From: a virus
Direction: 5' to 3' (one strand)
Length of the DNA stretch: 61,534 nucleotides
Virus record (IMG/VR): IMGVR_UViG_3300042539_001144
Span: 1-61,534 of that record
In this document: piece after piece, positions 7,112-61,216 of the stretch
Layout of the letters: the number at the start of each line of letters is the position of its first letter
Position numbering within the stretch: position 1 is the stretch's first letter
Notes under the pieces: model-generated
What the model was told of the DNA's origin: nothing
Databases searched by the model: none
Seen by the model: the letters and a program-made list of their open reading frames with translations, nothing else
Position numbers and translations under genes: made by a program

Positions 7112-7143
7112 CCTGTTTCACCCCCGAGTTGGAGGACTCTTTG

Positions 7144-8271: not shown

Positions 8272-8273
8272 GA

Positions 8274-8304: not shown

Positions 8305-8333
8305 ATCCCGACCAACACACAAGGGACACAGCG

Positions 8334-9914
8334 ATGGACGCGATGCGAGCGAAGGTTGCCCAGTTCAGGACGGCGGTGAAGAAGATTCTCCCGTACTTCA
8401 CGGGCGAGGTCTACGGCATGATCGCCATCGAGGAGAAGCGCGTCGGCACGATGGCGGTCGACGAGCAGGGGCGGATGTACTACGCCCCCGAGTTCGTGCG
8501 TCGGTGCTCGATCGAGCAGGGCCGGTTCACTGTCTGCCACGAGACGCTGCACGTTGCGCTCGGCCATGCTCGGCTGGCCCGCAAGATTCTCGGCGACAAC
8601 CCGACGCAGTCCATGCTCAAGGCGTGGAACTACGCCGCCGACTGCGTGGTCAACCAGATTCTCGGTGCGTACCTGCACGAGGCGCCGGGCGAGGACGTGC
8701 TCGGCCCGGGTGCCACGATCGTGACGCACCAGACGCTCGGCCTGCCGCCGCGGCTGACCATCACGCAGTACTACGACCTGCTCATGCAGCAGCAGCAGGA
8801 GCAGCCGCAGAACCCGGGCCAGCGTGGCACGGGCAAGGACGATGACACGGAGGACGACGAAGATGAAGACATGGAAGGGGCCGGTGAAGGTGAGCCTGAT
8901 GATCGGGACGGCGAACCTGACGAGCAGGGAGGTGGTGATGGTGGGGAACAAGACGTTCCTCACGATCCTTCTGAAGGCGATGGCGAGGGTGGCGAAGAGG
9001 ACGAAGGCGACGACGACGGTGAAGGTGAGGGTGGCGCTCGTCCCGGCGAAGGAGGTGCCGAACGGGACGGTGGTGCTGATCGCCCGTCGCAAGATGGCGT
9101 CGAGGATTCGTCGGACGCTGAAGGCGAAGGGTGCGACGGCGACCCGGCCGACGACGGTGGGGACGGGTCGTGGTCTCCGACTGGCGGCAGCGGCGCTGAC
9201 GGAGTGCCTCGCGGATACGAGGCCGAGCGAGACCCCTCGTGGGTCGACCGCGAGTACTCGCTCGCCAAGCAACTCGAAGCCGCCATCGAGGAAGCCGAGC
9301 GATCGTCGCCGGGCTCCGTCCCGGGCGAGTTGAAGGCGGCGGTCGGCCTCCGGCTACGGCCACAGCCTGACCCGTACGACGCTCTGCGTGCGTCCGTGGC
9401 TCGGGCTGTGGCCTCGCCGGTCGGTGCCCCCGACTTCACGCTGAAGCGGTTCAGCCGCAGGCAGCAGCCGGGCATGCCGCGCCTGCGTGGCGTGAACAAA
9501 CTCACGCCCAACGTCGTGGTCCTGCTCGACACGAGCGGGTCGATGGGCTTCAGATGCCCGGGCTACGAGCGAGCGGAGCGTGCCCTCGACGTGATCGCGA
9601 AGGGCATACGGAAGTTGAAGTCCGTGCGTGTCATCTGCTGGGACACGCAGAAGCACAGTGCCCGCATGGTGCAGTCCATGCAGGGCTTCGAGGTGCAGGG
9701 TGGTGGCGGCACCGACATGGGGCAGGCCATCGAGACGATCGACAAGGAACTCCGGCCCGACGCCATCCTCATGGTGACGGACTTGGAGACCGGCTGGTGT
9801 GAGCGGAAGCCTAGGGCCCGTGTCGTGATCGCTGCGACCGAGGCGCCGAGCGAGTACTACCCCGTGCCGGGATGGGCGACTGTCGTGGACCTGACACGCG
9901 GAGGTGGGCAATGA
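8334..9914 (+). CDS. DUF2201-type putative metallopeptidase with C-terminal VWA domain
   Basis: 526 residues. The N-terminal domain (about 1-160) has the zinc-peptidase signature HETLH at 69-73 within 'VCHETLHVALGHA'. A very acidic, Gly-rich linker of about 140 residues (D/E runs, roughly 170-310) follows. The C-terminal VWA-like domain begins near 385, with the MIDAS motif DTSGS at 399-403. The order metallopeptidase, acidic linker, VWA matches the DUF2201 family that partners MoxR ATPases. Low-complexity codons in the linker create long open frames in other phases, which I regard as shadows. Its start is preceded by AGGGACACAGCG. The stop overlaps the start of the next gene (ATGA). Role in infection unknown. 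Confidence 0.87.
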   Translation: MDAMRAKVAQFRTAVKKILPYFTGEVYGMIAIEEKRVGTMAVDEQGRMYYAPEFVRRCSIEQGRFTVCHETLHVALGHARLARKILGDNPTQSMLKAWNYAADCVVNQILGAYLHEAPGEDVLGPGATIVTHQTLGLPPRLTITQYYDLLMQQQQEQPQNPGQRGTGKDDDTEDDEDEDMEGAGEGEPDDRDGEPDEQGGGDGGEQDVPHDPSEGDGEGGEEDEGDDDGEGEGGARPGEGGAERDGGADRPSQDGVEDSSDAEGEGCDGDPADDGGDGSWSPTGGSGADGVPRGYEAERDPSWVDREYSLAKQLEAAIEEAERSSPGSVPGELKAAVGLRLRPQPDPYDALRASVARAVASPVGAPDFTLKRFSRRQQPGMPRLRGVNKLTPNVVVLLDTSGSMGFRCPGYERAERALDVIAKGIRKLKSVRVICWDTQKHSARMVQSMQGFEVQGGGGTDMGQAIETIDKELRPDAILMVTDLETGWCERKPRARVVIAATEAPSEYYPVPGWATVVDLTRGGGQ

Positions 9915-10648
9915 CGTTCGACGAACAGGTGGCTGCGCTGCGTGGGAAGGTGGAGCCGAAGCAGTTCAGGGGCGGGAAAGGCGCTGCCACGCCAGAGCAG
10001 TGGGCCGCCCACCTTGACGACGCAGTGCTTTACAAGCGGGCGAGGGCAGAAAGCAGCCCCGAGTGGAGACATCGCTACCGAGAGGCCGACCGCACCTACA
10101 CGCGAGAGTGGAAAAGGAAGAACGCCGGGAGAGTGCGGGAGTACAAGGCAGCGCGGCGCAAGGCCGGGGCCGACGCAGTTCGAGAGCGCGAATACCGCGA
10201 GAAGAACCGGGGGAGGATTCGCGAACGGTACCGGTCGTGGTGTGCTCGTGCTCGCTCAACGGACGTCCACTACCGACTCGTCAAGTCCGTCCGCGGAAGG
10301 CTCCGCGTGGCCGTGAACGGTGGCTACCGATCTGGCTCCGCCGTCCGTGACCTCGGCTGCTCGATCGAGGAACTCAAGTCCCACATCGAACGGCAGTGGG
10401 TCGGCTGTATGTCTTGGGAGAACTGGGGCAGCGGGCCGGGGACTTGGCAGATCGACCACGTCTACCCGCTGGCACAGACAGACCTGACCGACCGGGCCCA
10501 ACTGCTGGCGGCCTGCAACTGGCGGAACCTTCAGCCGATGTGGTTTGAGGACAACGTACGCAAGGGCGATACCGTCACGCCCGAAGCGCAGCAACTGTTT
10601 GACGGGCTGGTCTCGGAGTTCACGGAGGTGCGTGATGAAGTTGCGTAA
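9911..10648 (+). CDS. HNH endonuclease
   Basis: 245 residues from ATG 9911, in an ATGA overlap with the VWA gene and preceded by GGAGGTGGGCA. The N-terminal 110 residues are very basic and helical, likely DNA binding. The C-terminal HNH core reads 'QIDHVYPL' then 'NWRNLQPMW' with 'DNVRKGD', the usual I-D-H / N-L-Q-P / D-N-x-x-K-G order of phage HNH nucleases. It may be a free-standing homing-type enzyme inserted in the operon. The 3' end overlaps the next gene. Confidence 0.85.
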   Translation: MTFDEQVAALRGKVEPKQFRGGKGAATPEQWAAHLDDAVLYKRARAESSPEWRHRYREADRTYTREWKRKNAGRVREYKAARRKAGADAVREREYREKNRGRIRERYRSWCARARSTDVHYRLVKSVRGRLRVAVNGGYRSGSAVRDLGCSIEELKSHIERQWVGCMSWENWGSGPGTWQIDHVYPLAQTDLTDRAQLLAACNWRNLQPMWFEDNVRKGDTVTPEAQQLFDGLVSEFTEVRDEVA

Positions 10649-11309
10649 GTCGCAGAAGGAGTCGTGGCTGATGCGGGTGCTGATGGATCGGAAGGCCCGG
10701 CCCCTGCCGTACGTCGGAGGCATAGACCTCATGCCCATGGGCCGCACGCTGCTGCGGAAGTGGGCCGACAGGTACTGCGGCGGGTACGGGAAACTCACGC
10801 CGGAACATGCGGTCCGACTGCACGATCGGCTTGTAGTTATGGCGAAGGACATCGACGGTGCGGTCGTCGAGTGCGGCATGGTTCGTGGCCCGGCGTGGCA
10901 GCCCGGATACCTGTGGGCCTACGGTGCCATCGCCGTGCTCGACGAGTACGGCCGGGCGACCAGCGGGTCGGTGCTGATCCCCGGTGCCTCGGCCGTGCCG
11001 TACTACGTGCGCCGCAGCCTGACCAGTCCGAGGCAGTACCACCGCAGCCTCCGCCTGTGGGATGACCTGTGCCCAGTGATCGAGGACATCGCGTCCCCGG
11101 AGACCGTCACCCTCAACCGGAATCAGGTCGCCCGCAAGGACGACGTGAGACCCGGCGACTGCTATCTCTACGACCTGACCCGGGCGCACTCGCCGCGGGT
11201 GGTCGTGGAGAACTTGTACTTCGGCCGGGCCTGTCGGTTCGGCCTGCTCGACGAGATGATTGATACGGCACGGTGCCGTATCGTGTTCGGTTCCCTCGCT
11301 AGTGCGTGA
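10635..11309 (+). CDS. Hypothetical early protein
   Basis: 224 residues from ATG 10635, preceded by GGAGGTGCGTG and overlapping the HNH gene by 14 nt. Not recognised. The basic N-terminus contains 'KSQKESWLMRVLMDRK'; a mixed alpha/beta body with many Arg and Tyr residues follows ('WQPGYLWAYGAIAVLDEYG'). No catalytic motif is visible. It is the last larger gene before two very small ones and the recombinase. Confidence 0.6.
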   Translation: MKLRKSQKESWLMRVLMDRKARPLPYVGGIDLMPMGRTLLRKWADRYCGGYGKLTPEHAVRLHDRLVVMAKDIDGAVVECGMVRGPAWQPGYLWAYGAIAVLDEYGRATSGSVLIPGASAVPYYVRRSLTSPRQYHRSLRLWDDLCPVIEDIASPETVTLNRNQVARKDDVRPGDCYLYDLTRAHSPRVVVENLYFGRACRFGLLDEMIDTARCRIVFGSLASA

Positions 11310-11414: not shown

Positions 11415-11774
11415 ATGACTGGACGATACTGGATGGTCGTGCGGCCCGGCAGATGGTCGCCGGACGAAAAGCGGTTCCCCACCGGGGCCGATGCTCTTGA
11501 GTACGCGCTTCGCTTGGTTCGCCGGGCCAAGCGCAGCGCATTCGTGAAGCACAGGGAGCACTGCCCCGTGCGAGTCTTCGTGGTGACCATGTACGGCGAC
11601 ACCCCCGACGGCATCGCCTACGAGACGGCGATGTACGAGACCGGCGGGCGAGGGGATTACCCAAACTCCGGGCGGTCCATCGACACGGAGTTGCAGGCCG
11701 AGGTCGATGCATCGTGGCAGCACTACTTCATCCACAACCCTGACCAGAAAAGTCTTGAAGAGGAGGACGACTGA
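11415..11774 (+). CDS. Hypothetical protein upstream of the serine recombinase
   Basis: 119 residues; ATG 11415 follows GAGGGTGTGAC. 'YWMVVRPGRWSPDEKRF' at the N-terminus and an Arg-rich helix (EYALRLVRRAKRSAF) suggest nucleic-acid contact, but no family is recognised. The C-terminus is acidic (EEEDD), and the gene ends in TGATGG, where the recombinase starts, so the two are translationally coupled. Confidence 0.6.
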   Translation: MTGRYWMVVRPGRWSPDEKRFPTGADALEYALRLVRRAKRSAFVKHREHCPVRVFVVTMYGDTPDGIAYETAMYETGGRGDYPNSGRSIDTELQAEVDASWQHYFIHNPDQKSLEEEDD

Positions 11775-12556
11775 TGGCTACGTGCTACGGATACGGTCGA
11801 GCCAGCACCGACAAGCAGGAACTCACCGAGCAGGTGCAGTCCAAGTCGGTCAAGGAAAAGTACTCCGCCCTGCTCAAGCCCAAGGGCGTCAAGTGGGGCG
11901 GGTGGTACTACGACGCGGCGGTCTCGGGCAGCAAGCCGTTCACCGAGCGGCCCGCTGGCCTGCGCATGTGGATGAACCTCCAGCCCGGGGACTACGTGGT
12001 CACGCACCACAGCGACCGTGCGTTCCGTGACACGGCCGACGGCCTACGGACCTCGGCCCTGTTCCGGGCGAGGGGCGTCGTGCTTGTGATGCCTGACATC
12101 CCGCACGATCTGGAGACTGCGGACGGCGAGATGATGGCGACCATTCAGTTCGCATTGAATCTCCGCGAGCGCCGCAAGGTGGCGGAGCGTACCGCCGCTG
12201 CCATGCGCGTGCTGTCCGAGCGCGGCGTCCGGTTCGGCGGGGCCCGGCAGAGCACGCCAATCGGCTGGCGGTGGGGCGGCGCGGGCTACGTCGAGGACGC
12301 GGAGGAGCGGGCCCGCGTCGAGCAGATGGCCCAGTGGTACGAGTCCGGCCTGTCGCTGGAACGCATCGAGATGCGTGTGTCCTACCCGCCGTACCAGTGG
12401 AAGAGGCGCAGCACTAGCAGTCGCTTCGGAAACTGGTCTCGTCGGTACGTGGCGTTCGCTCTGGAGGCTCGTCGTCTTGGCTATCCGAAGGTCTTCCTGA
12501 ATGGTCGGAGACGCAAGACCGCAGCGCGTCCAGCGCATCAAGCATCCGCGACTTGA
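11774..12556 (+). CDS. Serine recombinase / resolvase-invertase family
   Basis: 260 residues. The catalytic N-terminus reads YGYGRASTDKQ with R9 and nucleophile S11; the second block SDRAFRDTADG has D81, R82 and R85, as in resolvases. After the long helix (to about 150), residues 155-230 form a compact region (GGARQSTPIGW..., E-R-A-R-V) resembling a short Recombinase domain. At 260 aa it is far smaller than large serine integrases, so it is probably a resolvase/invertase rather than the integrase; a tyrosine integrase is encoded at 20407. The last 143 nt are also read in the opposite direction by the sigma-like gene. Confidence 0.85.
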   Translation: MATCYGYGRASTDKQELTEQVQSKSVKEKYSALLKPKGVKWGGWYYDAAVSGSKPFTERPAGLRMWMNLQPGDYVVTHHSDRAFRDTADGLRTSALFRARGVVLVMPDIPHDLETADGEMMATIQFALNLRERRKVAERTAAAMRVLSERGVRFGGARQSTPIGWRWGGAGYVEDAEERARVEQMAQWYESGLSLERIEMRVSYPPYQWKRRSTSSRFGNWSRRYVAFALEARRLGYPKVFLNGRRRKTAARPAHQASAT

Positions 12557-15096: not shown

Positions 15097-15476
15097 CACT
15101 TTCCGGCGTTCCGTCGCCGCTCCTGTTTCGCCCACTCTGGCAACTCGGTCGGGTCCTCCTTTAGGCCCGCCCTCCCCTTCAGCCCGGCAAGAAACTTCAG
15201 GTCGACCTCGCCGTCCTCTTCTTCCTTCGCCTTCAGGATGTGGCCCAGCGTCAGCGGCTTGCCCGAGATGCCTGCGTGGTATGCGCGGTGGCACTCCTCG
15301 CAGACGAGGATCAGGTTCCGATGGTGGTGCGGGTCACGCCCTCTCCTGCCGACGATGTGGTGCAGTTCGCACCGCTTGCCCGGGCGGTACTTCCGCCAGT
15401 AGCACACAGCACACCGCTCGCTTTGGAATGCGTACGCCTCCAGCCACTTGCGGTCGGGCTCCTTCTTACGAGCCAT
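15096..15476 (-). CDS. HNH endonuclease (recombination-associated type)
   Basis: 126 residues. Zinc pair 'CAVC' (C22, C25), 'CELHHIVGRRG' as the HNH strand, 'NLILVCEECHRAYHAG' with the second CxxC and the final His. This is a complete C4-type HNH fold, similar to small phage proteins encoded in recombination clusters. The C-terminus is charged and helical. It starts inside the 3' end of the HEGTH gene and ends in an ATGA overlap with the resolvase-like gene. Confidence 0.85.
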   Translation of the reverse strand: MARKKEPDRKWLEAYAFQSERCAVCYWRKYRPGKRCELHHIVGRRGRDPHHHRNLILVCEECHRAYHAGISGKPLTLGHILKAKEEEDGEVDLKFLAGLKGRAGLKEDPTELPEWAKQERRRNAGK

Positions 15477-16197
15477 CGGGTTCCTCCGCCTGCGTGAGGA
15501 GTTCCCTGCCGTCCTCGCCGAGCACGTCGGCGAAGGGCTGTGCCTCGAAGTTCTCGATCGCGAGCCGGGCCCGGGCTACCAGCAGGTCGTAGAGGGCGCG
15601 CAGTTCCTCCTTGGGGTATGAGTCGTCCTCCCTGCGGCACACCTGCTCGACGGCGTACTTCGAGTACACGAGCAACTCGATGCAGAATCGGTCGGTCTCT
15701 TGCCGTCGGTCCCACCCGAGTTCCCTGCGGGTGATGCACCCGGCGGTGTACGCAGCCGCCTCGTCGAGCGGGTAGATGGCAACGTCCTGCCAGTCCCGCT
15801 GCGCCTCGATCAGGTACGTCTTGTAGGTCTTGCCCCTGTGCTGGGCCGGGATCGCGTCGGCGACGTGAGCCAGTTTCGTCCTGCGTGGGATCGGCACCTG
15901 CCACGCCACGCCGTCGAGCAGGTAGAAGCCGCGCTGCTTCCCGTTGCTGTGCCGCGAGTTCACGAAGTGCGTCCCCTCGTGGGCCCACGTAATGAGACAG
16001 CCATCCCCAGCCCGGGCATGCTCGGCATCAGCGGCCGGGAGCCGGGAGAGAATGTCCGTCAACGCTGGGGGCAGCGTCTTGTCGGCACACTTGCGGATGG
16101 CCGGAGCGTCGACGTCGTCGCCGATTAGCAGCCCGCCGATCCACGCCACCACCACGAACAGCAGAAACACCCACCCGATATCACGAGTCCAGTTCAT
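15466..16197 (-). CDS. Membrane-anchored putative zinc metallopeptidase (HEGTH)
   Basis: 243 residues from ATG 16197, preceded by AAGGAGGCGGCG. A membrane span at residues 9-25 (WVFLLFVVVAWIGGLLI), with a basic residue before it and acidic after, predicts an exported C-terminal domain. 'TWAHEGTHFVNS' places an HExxH zinc motif at 73-77. 'YPLDEAAAYTAG' near 146 could supply the third ligand (Glu), as in gluzincin-type peptidases. Several paired cysteines (37, 67, about 154) fit an extracytoplasmic location. I know no named family. It could act in lysis, envelope processing or exclusion. Confidence 0.65.
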   Translation of the reverse strand: MNWTRDIGWVFLLFVVVAWIGGLLIGDDVDAPAIRKCADKTLPPALTDILSRLPAADAEHARAGDGCLITWAHEGTHFVNSRHSNGKQRGFYLLDGVAWQVPIPRRTKLAHVADAIPAQHRGKTYKTYLIEAQRDWQDVAIYPLDEAAAYTAGCITRRELGWDRRQETDRFCIELLVYSKYAVEQVCRREDDSYPKEELRALYDLLVARARLAIENFEAQPFADVLGEDGRELLTQAEEPDGS

Positions 16198-20285: not shown

Positions 20286-20344
20286 TTCCTCGCCGCCGTC
20301 ACCGTGAAAGGTGTCGGCCATGTCTTCATCAGTCAGTTGGGTGG

Positions 20345-20372
20345 TTGAGTCGCTGAACGTCATCGGTATTCT
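20345..20372 (+). promoter_or_regulatory. Integrase promoter candidate
   Basis: TTGAGT (20345-20350), 16-nt spacer, TATTCT (20367-20372): a good housekeeping-type promoter, about 35 nt before the integrase ATG. A direct repeat GTACAGG (20391 and 20399) follows, just ahead of the ATG. Confidence 0.55.
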
Positions 20373-20406
20373 GTCTGAAAAGGACGTAGTGTACAGGGGT
20401 ACAGGT

Positions 20407-21258
20407 ATGGGGTCAATGGGTGAGGTGGCTGGGAACTACCTGCTGGGAAGAGACGTCTCGCGGGGATACGCGGCGAACATCCGGAGGACGGCGGCGAAGA
20501 TGGATGCCGCTGGGATCACCCCTGCGAACATCGATGGCACGCGCGTCAACATCTGGCTCTCCTCCATGAGAACGTCTGGTCTGTCGCCGATCAGTATACG
20601 GTCTGAGCGCCGCAGCGCAATCACAATCTGGCGGCATGGGATCGAGATCGAGGTGATCAAGAATCCCATCCGCCATGTCGTCCAGCCGAAGGTCCCTCGC
20701 AGGGTCACTCGTGCCTTCCGACGCGACGATCTTACGGGTGCTGTCAATAGGTTCAGCGATCTCAATATCTCGGCGCGTTTTCGGGGTAGCGGCTGCCCGA
20801 AGGCGCTCTGGCTCACCGCGTGGACCATGTTCGTCTACGAAACCGGGGCCCGATTCTCCGACGCCTACTCCCTCCGTGGCGAAGCACTCGTTCACGGCGG
20901 GGTTGCGTGGACAGCCAGCAAGACGGGCCTGCCCGTGATCAAGCGGCTGTCGCAGAGTACCGCGGAACGCTTGCAGCAACTGCTGGCACTCTCGCCGGAC
21001 GGCACCGTGTTCCAGTGGGCCGTGTCGAGGCGCCACGCTTTCGCCGCGATCCGCGAGGCGTACGAGGCGGCGGGCCTGAAGGGCGGCCGGACGCAATGGC
21101 TGCGGCGAAGCGGGGCGACCCACGCAGAGATGGACCGGAAGGGGGCCGCGATGGAGTATCTGGCTCACGCCACGCCCGGGCTGGCCGAGACGAACTACCT
21201 CGACTACACGCAACTCCTCGACCGGATCGCAGCGCCACGGCCGCTGGACGCAGGGTGA
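20407..21258 (+). CDS. int: Tyrosine recombinase / phage integrase
   Basis: 283 residues from ATG 20407, chosen because a promoter covers the longer frame and ACAGGGG precedes this ATG. The N-terminal part (1-95) is a SAM-like core-binding domain. The catalytic domain has R149 in 'ETGARFSDAYSL', K172 in 'TASKTG', R233/R234 in 'WLRRSGATHAE', H254 in 'LAHATPGLAETNY' and nucleophile Tyr264 (or Tyr267). The usual first His of the HxxR motif appears replaced by Gln230 (Q-W-L-R). It presumably integrates at host tRNA-Pro(CGG) via the attP just upstream. Confidence 0.88.
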   Translation: MGSMGEVAGNYLLGRDVSRGYAANIRRTAAKMDAAGITPANIDGTRVNIWLSSMRTSGLSPISIRSERRSAITIWRHGIEIEVIKNPIRHVVQPKVPRRVTRAFRRDDLTGAVNRFSDLNISARFRGSGCPKALWLTAWTMFVYETGARFSDAYSLRGEALVHGGVAWTASKTGLPVIKRLSQSTAERLQQLLALSPDGTVFQWAVSRRHAFAAIREAYEAAGLKGGRTQWLRRSGATHAEMDRKGAAMEYLAHATPGLAETNYLDYTQLLDRIAAPRPLDAG

Positions 21259-41404: not shown

Positions 41405-42052
41405 TCACTCCTCGATCCAGAAGTCCCCGATGGCAGCCGTGGCGGGCTGGGTCGGGCTCTTGGTCACGTTCACCGAACGGCCATCGGCACCGTCGGCACC
41501 AGTTGCACCATCGGCTCCATCCGCTCCGTCGGTGCCCTTCTTGGCGATCAGTTTCAGGTCGCCGGGGCTGACGAGACCGGCCCGGGTCAGGCCAGAGACG
41601 ACGTAGGTCTCGCCGCCGAACGTGACCACATCGTTGTTGTCGTACTCGGCCCCGGGGTCGTACTCGCCCTTGAAGGTCAGGCCGACGCCGTCAGCACCCG
41701 CAGGCCCATCGGCACCATCGGCACCGGCAGCACCGTCCTGACCCGGAGCCCCGTCAGCACCGGGGGCACCGTCCGCGCCCTTGGGACCACGGATGCCGCC
41801 GACGTTGTTCCACGCCGTGCCGCTCCAGACGAGGCCGTCGCCGGGGTTCGTGCCAGCCGGAAAGCCAGCCGGAACCGGGTCGGGGACGAGCCACATATCG
41901 CCCGTGGTCGGAGCAGCATCCGGCGGGTAGGCGGCGGCGGTGCCCTTGATGGTGACGCCCGAACCGTCCTTGCCGTCCACGCCGTCCTTGCCCGGGGGGC
42001 CGACGATCGAGACCCACGCGCTACCGTCGAAGATGCTGACGTTCTTAGCCAT
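41405..42052 (-). CDS. Collagen-like tail fibre protein
   Basis: 215 residues. Starts 'VSIFDGSAWVSIVGPPGKDGVDGKDG' and contains three Gly-x-y blocks (near 19-30, 86-122 and 170-192: GADGAPG, GPAGADG, GADGADG types) alternating with globular parts that share 'YPPDAAPTTGDMWLVPDP' style modules. Collagen-like triple helices are common trimeric shafts in phage fibres. It ends with 'QPATAAIGDFWIEE', a module repeated in the next upstream gene ('QPATAKAGDVWISN'). Confidence 0.8.
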   Translation of the reverse strand: MAKNVSIFDGSAWVSIVGPPGKDGVDGKDGSGVTIKGTAAAYPPDAAPTTGDMWLVPDPVPAGFPAGTNPGDGLVWSGTAWNNVGGIRGPKGADGAPGADGAPGQDGAAGADGADGPAGADGVGLTFKGEYDPGAEYDNNDVVTFGGETYVVSGLTRAGLVSPGDLKLIAKKGTDGADGADGATGADGADGRSVNVTKSPTQPATAAIGDFWIEE

Positions 42053-42063
42053 TGCTCTTTACC

Positions 42064-42261
42064 TCAAGGGGTGTTGCTGATCCATACGTCGCCAGCCTTT
42101 GCCGTCGCGGGCTGGGTGTTCTGCACGTTGACTGCGACCGACTCACCGGGGTCGCCTTTGTCGCCCTTGTCCCCCTTGGGTCCGGGCGTACCTCCACCGC
42201 TCCCACTGCTTATGGGCCGCCACTTTCCGGTCGCGGCGTCGAAGAAGTAGATCGTCGCCAT
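42064..42261 (-). CDS. Small collagen-like fibre protein
   Basis: 65 residues from ATG 42261 in overlap with the upstream fibre stop. 'ATIYFFDAATGKWRPISSG', then Gly-x-y repeats GPKGDKGDKGDPGES, and a C-terminal 'QNTQPATAKAGDVWISNTP' module that is nearly repeated at the end of the 215-aa neighbour. Probably a short accessory fibre or a modular piece available for recombination between fibres. Confidence 0.7.
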   Translation of the reverse strand: MATIYFFDAATGKWRPISSGSGGGTPGPKGDKGDKGDPGESVAVNVQNTQPATAKAGDVWISNTP

Positions 42262-42262
42262 G

Positions 42263-43600
42263 TCAGTAGGCTGCCTTCCAGCGGATGCCCGAGAAGTTCG
42301 CCTCGCTCGACCGCGCGCCGGGACTACAAGATATGTCACGGCTCTTGCTGCTCACCGAGCAGTAGCCGTAGGTCACGGCAGAGCCGACGAGCCGCATCGC
42401 CAGCGGGTAGTTGGCGTCGATCTCCGCAAGGGGGAACTGTGGTGGAAGCCGGAGGGGGACCCACGCACCGCTGCCAGCACCGAATGACAGGGTGCCCTTG
42501 AGTTCGATGAACCCGCCGATCATCCTCGCCTGAATCTCGGTAGAGACAGACTCCTTCGCCCCATCCATGCGAACCATCCATGTCCAATCAATGTCGGGCG
42601 GCGGCATCTTCGTGCCACCGACGAGCATCAACTTCACCTCGTCAAGGACGGACTTCTTGAACTCAACAAGGGCAGGGTCATTGATCGACGGGGAGCCAAG
42701 CGGACTGATCGCGGTCAGTTTGTCATCGACCTGCTTGCGCGAGTACAGCATCAACGCCATCTGGTTGTCGAAGTCAGCCTTGCTGAAGGCGTCGGTGATC
42801 CGCATGAAGCGGTCATCGGCCTGCTTCTGCGTGTAGACATCAGCCTTGAGGGGGTAGCGGAAGTCCGCTTCAGCCCGCGTGTAGATCGAGTCGAAGATCG
42901 TCTGGACTTGATTGCGGAGAAGGTCGAGGGCTTCAAGCCTGCCGTACCGGGTGTCGGCGGTTGCGAGCGTGACGTACGGGGCGAGGTCAATGACCGGAGC
43001 GGCCTTGCTCTCCAGCGTCTCGATGCGGGGCAGGAGGGCGTTGAGCGGTTCGAGGTCAGACTTGTAGACGAGGAACTCGTTGTCCACGCCGACGTTCAGG
43101 ACGAGCCGCGCCCCGTAGCCTTCTCCCGTGTCCGTGTACCCGAGAGCGACAGGTGGCAGCAACGTGTCGCCAAACCCGTAAGCCTGCGACACGACGGTCT
43201 TGGCGAGGAGCGGCTGCTCCTTGTCCTGCTTGCGGGCGTAACGGTCATCCGCCTCTGGACGGGTGTAGATCGAGTCGAACACCGCCTGCAACTGCGTGGT
43301 GATGAACGTCGTGGTCGAGAGCGGGGCGAACTTGCCGTCTACTTCCACCTTCGTGTAGGTGTCAGCCTTGTCGGCCTTGAGGTCGATCCTCTCCTGCAAC
43401 TGCCGTGCGGTCTCGGTGACGGCGAACAGCACTTGGTTCTGCACGGCGTCGAGGTCGAGGGCACCCTCGTCCCGAGACGCCTTGATCGCGGCGTCAGTCT
43501 GGACAATGGTGTAGTAGCCGTCGAGCGCGCCGGGCGAGCCGACCACTTCCTGCCACTGACCGTTGCTGTAGACGTTGAGGGTCTTCGTGTTAGTAGGCAT
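42263..43600 (-). CDS. Tail fibre protein with repeated Y-x-(K/R)-x-x-x-D turns
   Basis: 445 residues. From about 75 to 305 the sequence repeats a 'YT(K/R).E.D..(F/Y)' unit: TYTKVEVDGKF, YTRPEADDRY, YTRAEADFRY, YTQKQADDRF, FSKADFDNQM, YSRKQVDDKL, a pattern of trimeric tail-fibre shafts. The C-terminal 130 residues ('DIDWTWMVRMDG...GGFIELKGTLSF', then 'RLPPQFP') form a domain shared with the fibre encoded upstream. It would contact host receptors. Confidence 0.8.
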   Translation of the reverse strand: MPTNTKTLNVYSNGQWQEVVGSPGALDGYYTIVQTDAAIKASRDEGALDLDAVQNQVLFAVTETARQLQERIDLKADKADTYTKVEVDGKFAPLSTTTFITTQLQAVFDSIYTRPEADDRYARKQDKEQPLLAKTVVSQAYGFGDTLLPPVALGYTDTGEGYGARLVLNVGVDNEFLVYKSDLEPLNALLPRIETLESKAAPVIDLAPYVTLATADTRYGRLEALDLLRNQVQTIFDSIYTRAEADFRYPLKADVYTQKQADDRFMRITDAFSKADFDNQMALMLYSRKQVDDKLTAISPLGSPSINDPALVEFKKSVLDEVKLMLVGGTKMPPPDIDWTWMVRMDGAKESVSTEIQARMIGGFIELKGTLSFGAGSGAWVPLRLPPQFPLAEIDANYPLAMRLVGSAVTYGYCSVSSKSRDISCSPGARSSEANFSGIRWKAAY

Positions 43601-44804
43601 ATGCGGTAGCCCCCGTCAGTTCAGTGCCGGTGATCTTGCCGTCCCCAACCACGCCGACGCCGCCGTCCGGGTAGAACCGAACGAACACGCGGCGGTAAGA
43701 CACGCCAGTGTCGTAGCCGAACGCCACGACGGTTTGTTCGCGGGGTGGCTTCGGGAAGTTCGCTGGCAGTCGCTGCGCTACCGTGAACGTGCCTGTGGCG
43801 GTGACGGTGAGGGTCAGTTCTCCACGCAGTTGGATCATGCCGTTCAGGACACGGGCCTCGATCAGGCCAGAGCCCGCTACCTTCGTGCATGGCGTCCAAT
43901 CAATGTCTGCCGGGACGGTCTTTCCGCCCGAGATCATCTTCCGCACCTCGTCCATGACGCTCTGGCGGAACGCAGCACATGCGGGATCGGAGAGACTGAG
44001 CGTTGCGAGTTGCTTGGCAGCGACTGAAGTGGTTGCGGGGGCCAGCCACAGGTCGCCGTCCTTGAGGTCGCCAGCCGGAGCAGTGGGGCTTTCGTAGACA
44101 GCAGGTCGCTCGCCTTCTGCTCCGGCAGGGAGATTGAACAGGTCAACCACGCCTACGGGAGCAAAGGGCTTGTCGAGTTCGTCGGACGCAAGCCGCAGCC
44201 ACTGACCGCCGTCGTTCTGCGTCAGCGTCGAGGGGTTCTGCGGAGTCGGCAGGCCAGCCTCTGACTTGACGATCTTCGTGACCGAACGCACGGAGCCGTT
44301 GATCACGATGGTGGTCTGGTACTGCTGCCGCTGGATTGCGACGAGGGCACCGGAGCCATCGAAGTAGTGCAGGCCGTCAGCGTAGTCCTTGAAGGCGTCT
44401 TCGAGCCCTTGAGGCGTGGCGGCAGTCGGCTGTGGGGTTGTGCCCGCATGGCCGGTGATCGGCCCGTCGAGGCTGGCCGGAGGAATGGCCGCAATGGCGT
44501 CCGTGACGAACTGCTCGGTGGCGTAGCCGTTTAGGTCAACAGTCCCGCCCGTGACAACCCCGGCGATGGCCGCCGTAATGGCCGCATCCACTTCGGCCTT
44601 GGAGTACAGCGTGGCGATCTGACCGTCCACATAGGCGGTCGTGGCGTAGGCCGACAGGTCCACGGTCTGGAGCCCGCCGCCAGCGGGCAGCGCAGCCAGC
44701 AGGGCATCCACCTCGGCATCGGAATAGTAGCCGACGATCCCCTTGGCCGGGTTGATCGCGCTGGCGAAGTTCTGGTGCGGAGTCGGCCGGTCAGGTGCGG
44801 GCAT
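43590..44804 (-). CDS. Tail fibre protein, paralogue of the downstream fibre
   Basis: 404 residues. The N-terminus has 'YYSDAEVDALLAALP', 'ATTAYVDGQI', 'LYSKAEVDAAI', the same Y-S-x-A-E-V-D units as the next fibre. A central domain carries 'AVYESPTAPAGDLKDGDLWLAP'. The C-terminus, 'DIDWTPCTKVAGSGLIEARVLNGMIQLRGELTLTV' then 'RLPANFP', aligns with that of the 445-aa fibre. It overlaps that gene by 11 nt. The tandem duplication suggests fibre diversification for host range. Confidence 0.8.
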   Translation of the reverse strand: MPAPDRPTPHQNFASAINPAKGIVGYYSDAEVDALLAALPAGGGLQTVDLSAYATTAYVDGQIATLYSKAEVDAAITAAIAGVVTGGTVDLNGYATEQFVTDAIAAIPPASLDGPITGHAGTTPQPTAATPQGLEDAFKDYADGLHYFDGSGALVAIQRQQYQTTIVINGSVRSVTKIVKSEAGLPTPQNPSTLTQNDGGQWLRLASDELDKPFAPVGVVDLFNLPAGAEGERPAVYESPTAPAGDLKDGDLWLAPATTSVAAKQLATLSLSDPACAAFRQSVMDEVRKMISGGKTVPADIDWTPCTKVAGSGLIEARVLNGMIQLRGELTLTVTATGTFTVAQRLPANFPKPPREQTVVAFGYDTGVSYRRVFVRFYPDGGVGVVGDGKITGTELTGATAYAY

Positions 44805-44807
44805 GGT

Positions 44808-45740
44808 TCACTCTGCGATGAGGGGCAGGAGGTAGCGCTTGCCGTTCACGATGATCGGAATGCCGCCAACGATGTCGGGCTGGTAGAAGTTCAGCCCGTC
44901 CGGCGCAAGGCCAATCGGCTGGCCGCTTGACTGCACCGTCGTGATGTCGTCGGCAAACGTGAGCACCGGGTCGCGCAGAGCGGCTGCCGCTGGCGACTCG
45001 ATCAGCGGCAGCATGTACGTCTTGCCGTTCACCCGGATCGGCACAGCGCCGACGATGTCCGGCTGATGGAAGGTGAGGCCGTCCGGCGAGAGACCGATCG
45101 GCAGGCCGTTGGCCTGCTCGGTCAGCATCGAGTCGGAGTACACGGGCGGGTTCGCGTTCGTGTACTCGCCCGTGACGGGCGGCACGGGGTCGCCGGTCGG
45201 GTCCACCCAAATGGCGTTGCCGCCAGTTGGGGCAGGTGGCTCGGTGTCTGAGATCAGCACGGGCTCGGCGAAGTACCAGCCGGTGGCCGGATCGAGGTCG
45301 GACCGCAGGTAGCCGTCGCCCGTCGGGGTCGGCATCTGGTAGCCCGGGCTGGTCATCTTGCCGTCGCGGGCAAGAAGGACGCCGTACCACAGTTCTCCGA
45401 ACGCGCCGCCGTTGGCGATGACGTTGCCGTTGCCGAACACGTCGCCGGGGTTCCAGTCGGGCGAGGTGGCCTGCACCCGGGCGAACGTGACGTCGGTGTC
45501 CTTGAAGGCTGCCTTGAGGACCATCTGCTCCGCCCAAGTCTGGACGGGCATCGCGGGGTCCTCGGGCAATCCGACGGGGTTGCCGACCGTGTTGATCGTG
45601 CCGCTCGGCACGTTTGCCAGCGCGAGGTCGACGAGTTGCTTGACCGTCACTCGCTGCGTGGTGCCGCCGTTGACGACCGGGATGAGGCCGGTCGGCTGGG
45701 CGGTGCCCGCGGGCAGTGCGGAGATTTTGACGTCGGCCAT
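44808..45740 (-). CDS. Tail fibre / tail tip protein with internal duplication
   Basis: 310 residues. 'MADVKISALPAGTAQPTGLIPVVNGGTTQRVTVKQLVDL' is the standard N-terminal attachment strand of many phage fibres (quoted key parts: DVKISAL, G-x-T-x-x-V-x-x-x-x-L). The C-terminal 110 residues hold two tandem copies of 'G-x-P-I-G-L-(S/A)-P-D-G-L-x-F-x-Q-P-D-I-V-G', each followed by 'I-x-V-N-G-K-x-Y-x-L-P-L-I'. Head of the fibre cluster. Confidence 0.75.
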   Translation of the reverse strand: MADVKISALPAGTAQPTGLIPVVNGGTTQRVTVKQLVDLALANVPSGTINTVGNPVGLPEDPAMPVQTWAEQMVLKAAFKDTDVTFARVQATSPDWNPGDVFGNGNVIANGGAFGELWYGVLLARDGKMTSPGYQMPTPTGDGYLRSDLDPATGWYFAEPVLISDTEPPAPTGGNAIWVDPTGDPVPPVTGEYTNANPPVYSDSMLTEQANGLPIGLSPDGLTFHQPDIVGAVPIRVNGKTYMLPLIESPAAAALRDPVLTFADDITTVQSSGQPIGLAPDGLNFYQPDIVGGIPIIVNGKRYLLPLIAE

Positions 45741-46251: not shown

Positions 46252-46260
46252 GTTATGGCG
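46252..46260 (-). promoter_or_regulatory. Motif B copy (CGCCATAAC)
   Basis: Minus strand GACGCCATAACAAGGGCGAAGCA, 30 nt upstream of the ATG at 46222, in the gap after the 182-aa gene. Shares TGCCGTG further upstream and GGGCGnAGCA downstream with the copy at 33058. Confidence 0.6.
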
Positions 46261-46281: not shown

Positions 46282-46830
46282 TCACTTGCCCTTGCGCTTC
46301 CAGTGCGGCGTGTGCTTGTCCCGAACGCGCTGCTCCGCGGCCGTTCTCGTCAGGCCGGGCTCGGCTGCCATCTCTTTCCGGGCCAGTTCGCGGACGAGTT
46401 TCGGGTTGAGCCCAGCGGCGCGCTGGGGCGGGGCAACGCCCTCGGGCGGCGTGTAGTTCACCTGACCGCGGACCTCCAGCCGACGCTTCTTGGCGACCCG
46501 GAGGAGATCGTCCTTGCCGCTGATCCATGCCTGCGGATCGAGGTGCGCCCGGGAGTCCGCGATCCCGCCGTGGTAGTAGCGGCCCTCGGTCGAGATGCCA
46601 GCCTTCTTGGCTTCCCGCAGCATCCACTGGGCCTGCCGCTTGGGAATCTTGTCGAGCCACTCGGCGTTCTTGCGGCCCTGCATGAACGAGTCGTCCGTGC
46701 CGTGGACGCCCGGCGCGATCTGGAGCGCGCACATCTCGGCGAACCGCGGCGTCTGGCCGTCGGCGATCATCTTCCGGTAGTGCGCCTGCGCCTCGGGCGA
46801 AGCGGACGCGATCTCAAACGGGAGGTCCAT
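46282..46830 (-). CDS. Hypothetical virion-operon protein
   Basis: 182 residues; ATG 46830 lies in the 3' end of the portal gene. 'AHYRKMIADGQTPRFAEMCALQIAPGVHGTDDSFMQGR', 'LDKIPKRQAQWMLREAKKAGIS' and 'GRYYHGGIADSRAHLDPQAWISGKDDLLRVAKKR' look like a conserved phage protein placed after portal genes, basic and probably nucleic-acid or portal associated. I cannot name the family. The C-terminus ends in a run of Lys/Arg. Confidence 0.6.
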   Translation of the reverse strand: MDLPFEIASASPEAQAHYRKMIADGQTPRFAEMCALQIAPGVHGTDDSFMQGRKNAEWLDKIPKRQAQWMLREAKKAGISTEGRYYHGGIADSRAHLDPQAWISGKDDLLRVAKKRRLEVRGQVNYTPPEGVAPPQRAAGLNPKLVRELARKEMAAEPGLTRTAAEQRVRDKHTPHWKRKGK

Positions 46831-48904
46831 TCATCGGCTCCTCGGGGTTGGTCGTGGCCTCCCCGCCGCCTTCAACGCCATCCGGTGGAGGGGGGCCGGG
46901 AACTGGCGGAGGCGGCGGGGGAGGCGGGATCAGGAAGGGAGTGGCGTCGAGATCGTTGGCCTTGGCCCAAGCGTCGATCAGTGCGTTCATCGGACCGACG
47001 ACCCCGGCGCCCACCAGCGGCTGGAGCAGCGGGCCAAGGGTCTGGAACGCCATCGCCATGCGGTCCATCTCCGCCTGCTTGTTGAGGCGACGGGCCGAGC
47101 CGCTCGCGATGGTGTACTCGTACTCGCGCGTGATGGACGAGAAGTTCATCCCATCCTTGGGCGTGACGTGCATGGCCCACGCCTCGGCGCCGAGCGGACC
47201 GAGCACCGGGGACACGTCCTGCGGGCGCAGCAGCCATCGGGCGGCCATCGCCTCCTTGCGGGCCACCCGGGACATGAAGTCCTCGAAGTTCTGCGCCATG
47301 TCGTCGGGCCGGATCGACAGGTTGTCCTGCTTGACCTGCGCCTCACTGGCCGAGCGCATCTGGTTCCGCGTGGAGCCGTACACGAGTTCGGTGAGGCCGA
47401 CTCGTTTGTCGAACTGCTCCGCCACGGCGGCCAAAATGTCCCACATGTCCCGCGTCACGCCGGGGACGGCGAAGACCGATACGATGTCGCTGACCGATCG
47501 GCCGAGCGACTCGCTGATCTCCAGCAGTTTGAAGCCGTTCTCCGACGGGGCGAGGAGTTGGCCCTTGATGTCCGAGTCCGCCGCCTTAGACACGCCGATG
47601 ATCGTCTCGCACGACGTGGCGATGCGAGTCATCAGGAAGGACATTCCCCAGTTCAAGAATCGAAGTTCCCCGATCCCCGGGCGGATGTGGCTCACGGGCC
47701 AGAGCGCGTTCGGCTTTCGGTGGGGCGCGAACATCTCGAACGGCCAGCCGCCGTTGTCAGCCCACAGCGGAATGGGCCACGAGGTCCGGATGCGCAGGGA
47801 CTGCGGCATGCCCTCCTCGTCGAGTTCCTCATCCAGAGCAGATGGCGGGACGTTGAGCGGGTAGTCCACGCCCTCGGCGACCACGATGTAGCAGTTGTCG
47901 CCCAGCGGATCGAACACGCCGCGGTCGCTCTTCTTGGCGTCCTTGAGGCGGTCGCCGAAGCCGCACTTGCTCCAGACCTTGTAGAAGGTCACGAGGTCGT
48001 TCGTCTTCCCGGTGCGCTTCTTGCCCGACCGGGAGTCGCCCGTCTTTTCGTCGGTGTGTCGGGACGTCGAGTCGTACGACTCCAAGTTCGCCTTGAGGTC
48101 CGCTCGCTGGAGGCCGAACATGCGAGCCGCCTGATCGATCGGGAGCACGCACTTCTTGGCGCACCATGTGATCTCCTCGATCACCTGCGCGTCCGGGTCC
48201 AGAAGCAGGTTGTCGACCGAGTCGAAGAACGATCCGATGACGAGGGTCGGCTCGGCGGGCGGAATGTTCTGCTGCTCGACGGCCTCGGTCCACAGCACGC
48301 CGCCGCCCTTGATGAGGGCCTCGTCCACCACCTGACGCCCATGGGAGATCAGGTTGTTCTCGATGGGCGTCCAGTTCAGGTACGCCTGCATCAACTCAGC
48401 GACCATGCGCTTCGTCTGGTCCGCTGCGTCGATCGCCTGCGAAGCCTCGATGAACTGCATGACCCGTGGGTCCGGCATCGACTGCCCGGTCATCGGGTCG
48501 ACTTGGTACGCCTCCGGGTCGACGCCCACCATCTGCGGCGGGATCACCGGGAACTTCCGCGGGGTCACAGTGCGGACCGGGTTGCGGTTGTAGATGACCG
48601 CGCCGATGAGTTTCACGACCTCCCACACGCGGTTCACGGTGAGGCGAAACGCGGGCGCCGGGGTGGGGCGCGACATGAGGGTGAGGCCGCGGTTGCTGTT
48701 CTCGAAGAACCACCGTGGCCCGCCGTCGAAGAAGTGCATCGCCTCCTTCGCGTCCGAGTCGAACGCCGACTTGGCCTTCTTCGCAGACGAGATTTTCTTC
48801 AGCCACGCCTGCGCGATCGGCTTCAGTGGCGAGGCAGGGTTCAGGGGAGCCTGCTTGAGGTCCTCCCCGTCGCCCCTGTCCTCCTTGAGATCGTCTTCCG
48901 CCAT
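46814..48904 (-). CDS. Portal protein
   Basis: 696 residues, long as in short-tailed phages. The N-terminal 'AWLKKISSAKKAKSAFDSDAKEAMHFFDGGPRWFF' is followed by 'FRLTVNRVWEVVKLIGAVIYNRNP', the usual portal wing/clip start. The middle has 'VDEALIKGGGVLWTEAV' and 'FYKVWSKCGFGDRLKDAK'; the stem/crown part includes 'DKRVGLTELVYGSTRNQMRSASEAQVKQDN'. It ends in a Pro-rich tail (eight Pro near 660). The ring forms the DNA gate for packaging with the terminase two genes upstream. Motif B lies 17 nt before the ATG. Confidence 0.85.
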   Translation of the reverse strand: MAEDDLKEDRGDGEDLKQAPLNPASPLKPIAQAWLKKISSAKKAKSAFDSDAKEAMHFFDGGPRWFFENSNRGLTLMSRPTPAPAFRLTVNRVWEVVKLIGAVIYNRNPVRTVTPRKFPVIPPQMVGVDPEAYQVDPMTGQSMPDPRVMQFIEASQAIDAADQTKRMVAELMQAYLNWTPIENNLISHGRQVVDEALIKGGGVLWTEAVEQQNIPPAEPTLVIGSFFDSVDNLLLDPDAQVIEEITWCAKKCVLPIDQAARMFGLQRADLKANLESYDSTSRHTDEKTGDSRSGKKRTGKTNDLVTFYKVWSKCGFGDRLKDAKKSDRGVFDPLGDNCYIVVAEGVDYPLNVPPSALDEELDEEGMPQSLRIRTSWPIPLWADNGGWPFEMFAPHRKPNALWPVSHIRPGIGELRFLNWGMSFLMTRIATSCETIIGVSKAADSDIKGQLLAPSENGFKLLEISESLGRSVSDIVSVFAVPGVTRDMWDILAAVAEQFDKRVGLTELVYGSTRNQMRSASEAQVKQDNLSIRPDDMAQNFEDFMSRVARKEAMAARWLLRPQDVSPVLGPLGAEAWAMHVTPKDGMNFSSITREYEYTIASGSARRLNKQAEMDRMAMAFQTLGPLLQPLVGAGVVGPMNALIDAWAKANDLDATPFLIPPPPPPPPVPGPPPPDGVEGGGEATTNPEEPMNGPPV

Positions 48905-48921: not shown

Positions 48922-48930
48922 GTTATGGCG
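48922..48930 (-). promoter_or_regulatory. Motif B copy upstream of portal
   Basis: Minus strand TGACGCCATAACGAGGGTGGAGG; CATAAC lies only 17 nt before the portal ATG, with the ribosome binding site (GGTGGAGG) in between. If it is a -10 element, the transcript would have almost no leader. Confidence 0.6.
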
Positions 48931-55691: not shown

Positions 55692-56138
55692 TTACTTGAA
55701 GACCTGCGTGCCGTACGGCTGACCGTCGTTCGTCATCACCACGCCGACGCCGATCTCGCTGTAGTTCGGGTTCAGCATGTTGCGGCGGTGGCCCGGGCTC
55801 GCGTACCACGCCTCGACCATGGCCTCGGGCGACTTGTAGTTCCAGATGACGTTCTCGCCCCACCCGGCGGCGCCGCTGTGGTACATGCGCCGCTGTCTGG
55901 CCTGCGTGCCGCTCCAGCCGCGGGCGAACTTCATCGCCTTCTCGGTGACCTTCAGCGGACGCAGCCCGTGACGTCTCCGGATGGCGTTGGTCAGGTCGAC
56001 GACCTTGTACTCCCACGCACTGCCGACGGTGACTCGACGGCACACGCCGCCGTTGCACTCGGTCCTGATCAGCCTGTTCTCGGCGGTCGCTGCTTGGCAG
56101 AGTGCCAGAGCGACCAGCACGACGATTGCGTGCCGCAT
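55692..56138 (-). CDS. Secreted CAP/SCP-domain protein
   Basis: 148 residues from ATG 56138 (GGAGG 6 nt upstream). Signal peptide RHAIVVLVALALCQAATA-EN, then a CAP domain: 'VVDLTNAIRRRHGLRPL', 'FARGWSGTQARQRRMYHSG', 'GWGENVIWNYKSPEAMVEAWYASPGHRRNMLNPNYSEIGVGVVMTNDG'. These carry the conserved His (YHSG), the G-E-N, the W...SPGHR-x-x-x-L block and the final G-x-G-V strand. CAP domains of the YkwD type are secreted and sometimes linked to sporulation or virulence; a copy heading a phage virion operon is unusual. Motif B lies 30 nt upstream. Confidence 0.85.
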   Translation of the reverse strand: MRHAIVVLVALALCQAATAENRLIRTECNGGVCRRVTVGSAWEYKVVDLTNAIRRRHGLRPLKVTEKAMKFARGWSGTQARQRRMYHSGAAGWGENVIWNYKSPEAMVEAWYASPGHRRNMLNPNYSEIGVGVVMTNDGQPYGTQVFK

Positions 56139-56167
56139 GGTTGCCTCCTGCTCGATTGGGGCGCCTT

Positions 56168-56177
56168 GTTTATGGCG
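56168..56177 (-). promoter_or_regulatory. Motif B copy upstream of the CAP gene
   Basis: Minus strand CGTCGCCATAAACAAGGCGCC, 30 nt before the CAP start. The plus-strand gene at 56209 starts about 32 nt on the other side, so the 70-bp gap is a divergent promoter region. Confidence 0.55.
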
Positions 56178-59772: not shown

Positions 59773-60147
59773 TCAGAACCCGCCCCAGTCCTCGGACGCG
59801 CTGGACGACTCGGACTTGGGCCCGCCGCCACGCTTGGGCCACCGCAGGGAGACGCCCACGTCGTCGGCCAAGACGGTGATCGAGGTGCGCTCGTTGCCGT
59901 CCTTGTCCTGATACTTCTCGACCTCCAGCCGCCCGACCACGATCACGCGGTCTCCCTGCTGGACCTTCTCGGAGACGAGGCTCGCCATCTCCTTGAAGCA
60001 CAGCACGTTGACCCACGAGGTCACCGGCTCCCGGCCTTCCTGCTTCCGGGTGCTGGCGACCGAGAAGCGGCACATGCTCTCGCCGCCCTTGGTCTGCTTG
60101 AGTTCGGGCTGCTTGCCCACGTTGCCGTCGATCTCGACACGAATCAT
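59773..60147 (-). CDS. ssb: Single-stranded DNA-binding protein
   Basis: 124 residues from ATG 60147 (CGGAGGACCCGCAG upstream). OB-fold SSB pattern: 'IRVEIDGNVGKQPELKQTKGGESMCRFSVAST', 'SWVNVLCFKEMASLVSEKVQQGDRVIVVGRLEVEKYQDKDGNERTSITVLADDVGVSLRW'. A short acidic/Ser tail ends WGGF rather than the usual (D)DIPF. It coats ssDNA during replication and recombination with the Erf/exonuclease set encoded elsewhere. Confidence 0.9.
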   Translation of the reverse strand: MIRVEIDGNVGKQPELKQTKGGESMCRFSVASTRKQEGREPVTSWVNVLCFKEMASLVSEKVQQGDRVIVVGRLEVEKYQDKDGNERTSITVLADDVGVSLRWPKRGGGPKSESSSASEDWGGF

Positions 60148-60265: not shown

Positions 60266-60274
60266 CGCCATAAC
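60266..60274 (+). promoter_or_regulatory. Motif B copy on the plus strand
   Basis: CTCACGCCATAACGTCAG, 41 nt before the ATG at 60316. The only plus-strand motif B copy of good quality, in front of a rightward gene, which supports a directional promoter role. Confidence 0.55.
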
Positions 60275-60315
60275 GTCAGTGCCCCGAGCAGATCACACCC
60301 TCAAGGTGCCCGCCC

Positions 60316-61086
60316 ATGATCCGCTCTCTGCTCCAGACCGTTGCGTTCGCCATCTCACTCGTCGCCGCGGCCGTGGTTGGTCTCGTGCTGGCGATCGGCG
60401 GTGCCTCGTACGCGCTCGGCGGCACGATCACCGGCACGGCGGAGTACTACGATTCGCCCGTCCGGCTCATGGGCTCGGACGACTTCGCGGTGTGGGGCGG
60501 CCCCAGCCTCACGGCCAGTGCAGTCAAGGGGGCGGGCCTGATCCACTACACGCTCACGGGGGTCGGCGCTGGTGAGTCGTCGCTCGCCAGCGGCAACTAC
60601 GCGGCGGTGTTCGGGACCGGGACCTCGTGGACTCCGGGCGGCATTTACTGGACCGGCAACCAGAACGGCAAGGGCTTCACGCTCACGGTGCCGGGCGATG
60701 CCATGGAGGGAAGGACCCTCGGCGTGTGGGTCTTCACGAACGGCCCGGCGGGCGGCCGACTGATCGCCAGCGGGGTCGGGTTTGACGGGAGCCCCGTGGG
60801 GATGGCCCCGATCACGATCGAGCCGTACCGCCAGACGCTGCTGCTCCTCTCGGCCACCGGGCTGGAGTCAGGGTTGTCCGTCACCCTGACCAGCACGAGC
60901 AGCGTATCCAGCGCCTCGGGGCAGTTCGTCCTCGGCGCCGCAGCACTGACGCCGCTCGCCGTCCCCGAGCCGGAGTACTGGCTGGCGGGGCTGATCGTCC
61001 TGATGGGCATGCTGGCGTACTGGCTGTTCATGTCCACCGTGGGGCGGATCATCCGCGACGGCGACGGGGACCGGCGGGACCCGTAG
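60316..61086 (+). CDS. PEP-CTERM-like surface protein
   Basis: 256 residues from ATG 60316 (CTCAAGGTGCCCGCCC upstream). An N-terminal signal/anchor of about 30 residues (LLQTVAFAISLVAAAVVGLVLAIGG) leads into a beta-rich, Gly/Ser/Thr-rich body. Near the end come VPEPEYW, a 19-residue hydrophobic span (LAGLIVLMGMLAYWLFMS) and 'RIIRDGDGDRRDP'. V-P-E-P plus span plus Arg resembles a PEP-CTERM exosortase sorting signal, but the tail after the span is longer than usual. A phage-encoded surface protein, likely a lysogenic-conversion gene (inference). Confidence 0.6.
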   Translation: MIRSLLQTVAFAISLVAAAVVGLVLAIGGASYALGGTITGTAEYYDSPVRLMGSDDFAVWGGPSLTASAVKGAGLIHYTLTGVGAGESSLASGNYAAVFGTGTSWTPGGIYWTGNQNGKGFTLTVPGDAMEGRTLGVWVFTNGPAGGRLIASGVGFDGSPVGMAPITIEPYRQTLLLLSATGLESGLSVTLTSTSSVSSASGQFVLGAAALTPLAVPEPEYWLAGLIVLMGMLAYWLFMSTVGRIIRDGDGDRRDP

Positions 61087-61092
61087 CGCCCC

Positions 61093-61188
61093 TCACGCCG
61101 GGCCGTCGATGAACTCGATCATGGCGTCGAGCAGCGCGAGCATCTCTGCATCGCAGTCCTCGTCAGAGATTTGTTCCCAGCCCGCCAT
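61093..61188 (-). CDS. 31-residue acidic mini-protein
   Basis: ATG 61188 to TGA 61093, preceded by GAGGTGGACTC and a motif B copy 18 nt away. Sequence 'AGWEQISDEDCDAEMLALLDAMIEFIDGPA': acidic amphipathic helix. Convergent with the PEP-CTERM-like gene (6-nt gap). Too short to classify; the promoter-like element and ribosome binding site make expression plausible. Confidence 0.5.
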   Translation of the reverse strand: MAGWEQISDEDCDAEMLALLDAMIEFIDGPA

Positions 61189-61204: not shown

Positions 61205-61216
61205 GGTTATGGCGGG
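61205..61216 (-). promoter_or_regulatory. Motif B copy upstream of the mini-gene
   Basis: Minus strand TCCCGCCATAACCACC, 18 nt from the ATG at 61188. Confidence 0.55.

Follow-up and report, generated by a model that had tools for sequence, protein, structure and literature searches.

The viral DNA analysed here, a stretch of 61,534 nucleotides referred to as the window (IMG/VR record IMGVR_UViG_3300042539_001144), carries at 60316-61086 on the plus strand a genuine, conserved gene whose product, as judged from its sequence, is PEP-CTERM-like and probably exported. Tentatively, we read it as a PEP-CTERM-type protein that is made late, exported and active at the surface to which the tail fibres bind, where it may mask the receptor. 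An earlier note on the same DNA was mostly right in what it observed and half right in how it interpreted it, since a part in the late programme and a link to host recognition are more likely than the lysogen moron proposed there.

Identical stretches of 127 nt at its two ends, together with a junction that is contiguous in the relative L002, show the window to be a circular phage contig. Genes for terminase, portal and major head protein are present, which bears out the phage origin claimed before. The gene, its parts and its two neighbours are as follows.

60316-61086, plus strand: PEP-CTERM-like protein of 256 aa, predicted to be exported (ATG ORF)
60316-60420, plus strand: hydrophobic signal or anchor, residues 1-35 (hydropathy)
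60421-60960, plus strand: Cys-free body, residues 36-215, a beta-sandwich in the model
60961-60972, plus strand: VPEP, residues 216-219
60973-61083, plus strand: hydrophobic span and mixed-charge tail, residues 220-256, fast-evolving
59773-60147, minus strand: single-strand DNA-binding protein (SSB) gene, the divergent neighbour, used as locus marker in relatives
61093-61188, minus strand: convergent 31-aa acidic ORF (MAGW...FIDGPA) with its own CCATAA at 61207-61212, conserved in L002, L014 and L016

The ORF has a GC3 of 0.92, and its protein is 99% identical to that of L001 and 90% identical to that of L002, with dN of 0.061 and dS of 0.131 against the latter. As the earlier note had stated, it is oriented against its neighbours, with minus-strand genes on both sides (SSB to the left and the 31-aa ORF to the right). 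The placing of plus-strand genes immediately past the circular junction proved wrong, the next ones, a small ORF and an ORF extending over the junction, both lying on the minus strand. The second of these reaches from 61339 over the junction to about 444; by eye, its start is HNH-like and its C-terminal part recombinase-like. Elsewhere, the plus strand holds a resolvase gene (11774-12556) and a tyrosine-recombinase-like gene (20311-21258) marginally below the Pfam cut-off. Plus-strand repeats close to GATCGGCTGATAGTT (at most 2 mismatches) are found at 1139, 2125, 3302, 4288, 6032 and 10824, within the region 814-10838; they seemingly lie 5' of plus-strand genes and are possibly an early-gene element. 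GGGAGCGTTTCCC occurs there in three exact plus-strand copies, at 1182, 2882 and 6071.

A scan with the head protein yielded 42 related viral loci. Combining tblastn and profile searches, members of the family were located next to the SSB gene in L002, L010, L014, L016, L033 and L021, and one more on a separate contig, L051. A diverged member lies elsewhere in the L022 phage and was retrieved via the PEP-CTERM model TIGR02595; a profile built without it gives this copy an unsupported 9.2 bits (E 0.34), and it is counted as a member because of its IPEP tail and its leader. The family thus comprises ten phage contigs, window and L001 included, while L001, which nearly duplicates the window, is excluded from the nine-member alignment. 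All nine aligned sequences show [VI]PEP followed by a hydrophobic span and a tail (VPEP in eight, IPEP in the ninth), and the hydrophobic N-terminus and Cys-free body are present in all 8 members examined, a set that leaves out the L022 copy.

Searches outside this set gave little. Of 13 related records, 6 were matched by the family profile. The seven without a match include several fragments and the L022 phage, so that absences, for example from G006 and G014, are not firm, the profile having missed that phage's diverged copy. When pieces of G006 and G014 were examined by local profile search, nothing below E 0.1 emerged. In L031 and L032 the place of the family gene at the SSB locus is taken by a small ORF and a gene that looks HNH-like by eye, and in L039 the SSB gene is in view on a contig that ends too soon to judge. 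No match was obtained by tblastn with three members against 50,697 deposited phage records, nor by a PHROG search with four homologues of the ORF protein, and the PHROG and Pfam matches of the protein itself are weak and uninformative.

Concerning the pattern of conservation, the C-terminal anchor, and often the signal, changes much faster than the body in several pairs while PEP stays invariant, as would be expected if the two ends are sorting signals. Between L010 and L051 identities are 4/19 in the signal, 136/180 in the body, 4/4 in VPEP and 1/18 in the tail; for L010 and L016 they are 143/177 (body) and 16/42 (tail), and for L016 and L033 166/177 (body) and 30/50 (tail). The window and L002 share 35/35 residues of the signal, 172/180 of the body and 19/37 of the tail, with dN of 0.40 and dS of 0.38 over residues 221-256 versus 0.017 and 0.10 over residues 1-220; the elevated dS of the tail leaves room for recombination. 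Little contrast is seen when the window is compared with the members 40% identical to it (body 39-43%, tail 16-38%), L014 and L016 are similar throughout the protein, and the L021 and L022 bodies display only 17-26% identity to other members.

The earlier note had described a signal or anchor, a beta-rich body, VPEP, a hydrophobic span and an Arg tail. Every element is found except the last: the window tail is mixed, with 4 K/R and 4 D/E after the span. The Kyte-Doolittle maximum is 2.16 over 17 residues, beginning 3 residues after PEP. Shuffling the window protein 200000 times produced a PEP with a hydrophobic span near the C-terminus in 44 cases, and one of the window's 348 stop-to-stop frames of 100 aa or more has this combination. 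The body contains no Cys, 10.6% Ser, 11.7% Thr, few basic residues and 2.2% Asn, a composition that resembles the PEP-CTERM description in an excerpt of Haft et al. 2006 (PMC1569441), except that Asn is raised there.

Profile support is found in the family rather than in the window copy. No PEP-CTERM model of Pfam or NCBIfam matched the window or L002 proteins, while the same-locus relative L021 passes the 16-bit cut-off of TIGR02595 with 18.2 bits by protein and 20.9 bits in the genome search (its protein has no Pfam match). Near-misses were recorded for the L022-phage copy (14.7 bits) and for L014 and L016 (14.4). The claim of a PEP-CTERM-like protein therefore survives for a family with one qualifying member and others just below the cut-off. 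The window copy has neither HMM support nor a plain Arg tail and is not filed as a member of the PEP-CTERM class. A basic C-terminal cluster free of acidic residues is seen in L021 alone of the 8 members examined. Six members extend 37-51 residues beyond PEP, against 19-32 residues in six PEP-CTERM proteins from metagenome-assembled genomes (MAGs); L021 has 27 and L051 30 (the L014, L016 and L033 rows miss the last residue). The N-terminus of L051 is short and, by eye, resembles a cleavable Sec signal.

An AlphaFold2 model based on a seven-member alignment (mean pLDDT 61) shows a helix at residues 2-33, a beta-sandwich and a second helix at 221-248. Its fold matches are carbohydrate-binding modules (CBMs) and other beta-sandwiches, with a best Z of 8.4 for a GOLD domain and values of about 7-8, which are middling scores, for several CBM-like domains. 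The predicted fold is thus compatible with sugar binding by the body.

As to expression, the earlier note placed the gene under its own promoter element, a "motif B" that it left undefined and that we take as CCATAA plus context. The relevant copies and genes are listed below.

60268-60273, plus strand: CCATAA, 48 nt 5' of the ATG of the family gene, followed by a conserved CCGAG
48923-48928, minus strand: CCATAA 5' of the portal gene (46814-48904)
46253-46258, minus strand: CCATAA 5' of a 104-aa gene between the portal gene and the tail-fibre region
55692-56138, minus strand: CAP-domain protein with a signal-like N-terminus (by eye), whose leader has CCATAA and CGAG like that of the ORF

A copy upstream of the ORF does exist, and in all but one (L051) of nine family members, L001 not counted, CCATAA is located 47-55 nt 5' of the start. 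Six of the 12 CCATAA copies in the window lie at most 60 nt 5' of a ribosome-binding site with ATG, whereas 59 permuted hexamers averaged 0.64 such cases each. Among these controls, ATCAAC had the highest count (6 of its 42 copies) and CATAAC, which overlaps CCATAA, the highest fraction (4/7). The motif also stands 5' of both the CAP gene and the portal-position gene in L010, L014, L016, L022, L027, L033, L034 and L036, where the portal was assigned from its N-terminus; L031 and L032 show no copy 5' of either. Nor is the copy at the ORF the only plus-strand one, as had been said, since another precedes a gene at 11392 (+). Being found 5' of portal, CAP and other virion-region genes too, the motif is not special to the ORF and looks like a late-gene element.

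Some further features of the leaders should be mentioned. Those of CAP (56138-56175) and of the ORF (60268-60315) share CCATAA and, later, CGAG, which the listed portal-position leaders lack; this was noticed post hoc, is partly a length effect and holds for a few other leaders as well, and so is not used as proof. A short hairpin of the GAGCACCT...AGGTGCTC type lies at 60280-60312, just 5' of the start codon and overlapping the likely ribosome-binding site, and is also present in the leaders of L010, L014, L016, L021 and L033, with compensatory changes in L033 only. This start-site hairpin has 8 pairs with 82% of cells paired, and 9 of 500 shuffles scored equally high; being weak in the window itself, it was set aside. 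A simple scan revealed neither a sigma-70-like promoter nor a terminator, which says little because the values for shuffles were themselves as low as 0.2 and 0.4.

L051 supplies the principal argument for a receptor role. This 34-kb record has a mostly unrelated backbone, and its family gene is embedded in a run of tail-fibre genes, overlapping both neighbours by ATGA. The upstream neighbour has as best PHROG match phrog_1084, of unknown function (E 2e-15), and as second phrog_3304, tail-fibre assembly (E 9e-9), while the downstream one matches the tail-fibre family phrog_3904 (E 4e-8). From the 65 genes predicted in the window by a crude gene caller, only the ORF, 15466-16197 and four genes of one region match L051 at E of at most 0.001.

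41405-45740, minus strand: tail-fibre region, four genes matching L051 (best identities 40-72%)

Within this region, 41405-42052 has strong tail-fibre PHROG matches (its L051 match covers 38 residues at 61%), 42263-43600 has weak virion matches in PHROG, and the remaining two genes, with no PHROG match, are named by position. The product of 15466-16197 is peptidase-like by eye and has no Pfam match. L051 also contains a CAP-like gene (by eye); the CAP gene of the window is not among the 65. This arrangement, seen in one contig, suggests that the family gene moves between phages that otherwise differ, in company with genes probably involved in receptor binding.

The virus probably infects planctomycete bacteria. 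When genomes were scanned with the alignment of the head protein, relatives turned up in two MAGs of planctomycetes, L064 (Pirellulaceae) and L065 (Planctomycetia). The first has the look of a phage contig and the second appears chimeric, so that the host link is only suggestive. Both MAGs encode exosortase (PF09721), with 13 PEP-CTERM protein matches in the L064 MAG and one in the L065 MAG, and exosortase occurs in 71 of 99 sampled genomes of the family of the L064 MAG. None of seven phage records encodes it. The earlier note had named missing HMM support combined with hosts lacking exosortase as the outcome that would speak against it: the first half applies to the window protein, but exosortase is present in both MAGs holding capsid relatives. 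A host source for the body was also sought and set aside, as the scan of genome contigs gave no relatives and 241 genomes gave one weak, stop-bearing partial match.

Taken in sequence, the proposed mechanism would run as follows. The gene would be transcribed alongside the late virion genes via the phage-specific CCATAA element, and the infected cell would export a protein made of an N-terminal signal, a Cys-free beta-sandwich resembling a carbohydrate-binding module, VPEP and a disposable membrane anchor. Exosortase of the host, probably a planctomycete, would cleave at PEP and deliver the body to the outer surface or the exopolysaccharide, where it would act on the surface structure recognised by the tail fibres. 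Masking of that receptor would keep progeny from re-adsorbing to infected cells and debris. The more specific version, in which this late phage protein is cleaved by host exosortase and, displayed in the exopolysaccharide layer, masks the glycan to which the linked fibres bind or competes with it, is possible if somewhat unlikely.

Three other explanations were weighed against receptor masking by an exported late protein. An unlikely one is that the product is a late envelope protein derived from former PEP-CTERM cargo that, in the clade of the window, is no exosortase substrate but stays in the inner membrane, anchored through its C-terminal and perhaps also its N-terminal helix, and serves lysis or envelope remodelling. 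The failure of the window and L002 proteins to reach TIGR02595, the extended mixed or acidic tails past the span and the long helix modelled at residues 2-33 all agree with it. Yet VPEP is invariant and the residues that follow diverge with their hydrophobicity kept, which is what a discarded anchor would show, and the L051 signal is short and, by eye, cleavable-looking. Improbable, in our judgement, is the proposal of the earlier note, an independently expressed cargo gene altering the surface of the lysogen. A single gene opposing its neighbours with its own CCATAA copy would suit a moron, as would the match of the family profile to just 6 of 13 related records (several being fragments), the presence of integrase-like and resolvase genes, and the case of L033, whose SSB is only 34% identical to that of the window yet whose ORF body is 93-94% identical to those of L014 and L016. 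The recombinase genes make lysogeny possible, but nothing found ties the ORF to it.

Two observations led us to set aside a lysogen-only moron: the motif upstream is common to portal and other virion-region genes, and the L051 copy sits among tail-fibre genes; the lack of a sigma-70-like promoter or terminator in the simple scan points the same way but, given the shuffles, counts for little. The L051 position, together with the shared fibre-region genes, would fit a virion component, that is, a tail-fibre accessory reaching the particle and using its signal-like ends for membrane or fibre attachment, and the model has a weak structural match to the phage tailspike domain 5w6h (Foldseek E 2e-4, Z 6.5). 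This is nevertheless the least probable of the readings considered, because a hydrophobic N-terminus and a PEP with hydrophobic span suggest export, and in the phage group of the window the gene adjoins SSB, away from the virion genes.

The known substrates of exosortase are surface proteins of bacteria. With the cargo of the PEP-CTERM/EpsH (exosortase) system (TIGR02595, PF07589) the family shares the hydrophobic N-terminus, a Cys-poor, Ser/Thr-rich body of low homology, the PEP, the hydrophobic span and the single-gene arrangement; it differs in being phage-encoded, in a long tail of mixed charge where the cargo has a short basic end and in an upstream motif common to virion-region genes, and the window protein scores below the model cut-offs. 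No phage-encoded exosortase substrate appears in the titles and abstract openings among the matches listed for PEP-CTERM or exosortase with phage, although full texts may mention one. Carbohydrate-binding modules (CBM4, 16, 22 and others) have a beta-sandwich arrangement similar to the model, but the structural scores are middling and there is no sequence match.

The receptor role is proposed by analogy to T5 Llp. Like Llp and the Cor superinfection-exclusion lipoproteins, the family consists of phage proteins, here predicted to be exported, that are linked to receptor-binding genes, in this case in L051 only; an excerpt of PMC9586334 places the T5 llp gene adjacent to and downstream of pb5. 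Llp acts on a protein receptor and is a small lipoprotein of the periplasm, whereas the family protein is larger, with a modelled beta-sandwich and a PEP-type C-terminus. Should the cleavage and display by host exosortase outlined above be true, the family would represent a viral superinfection-exclusion or progeny-release device resting on PEP-CTERM sorting, and if phages do exploit the exosortase pathway, it would offer a handle on how they meet the planctomycete surface.
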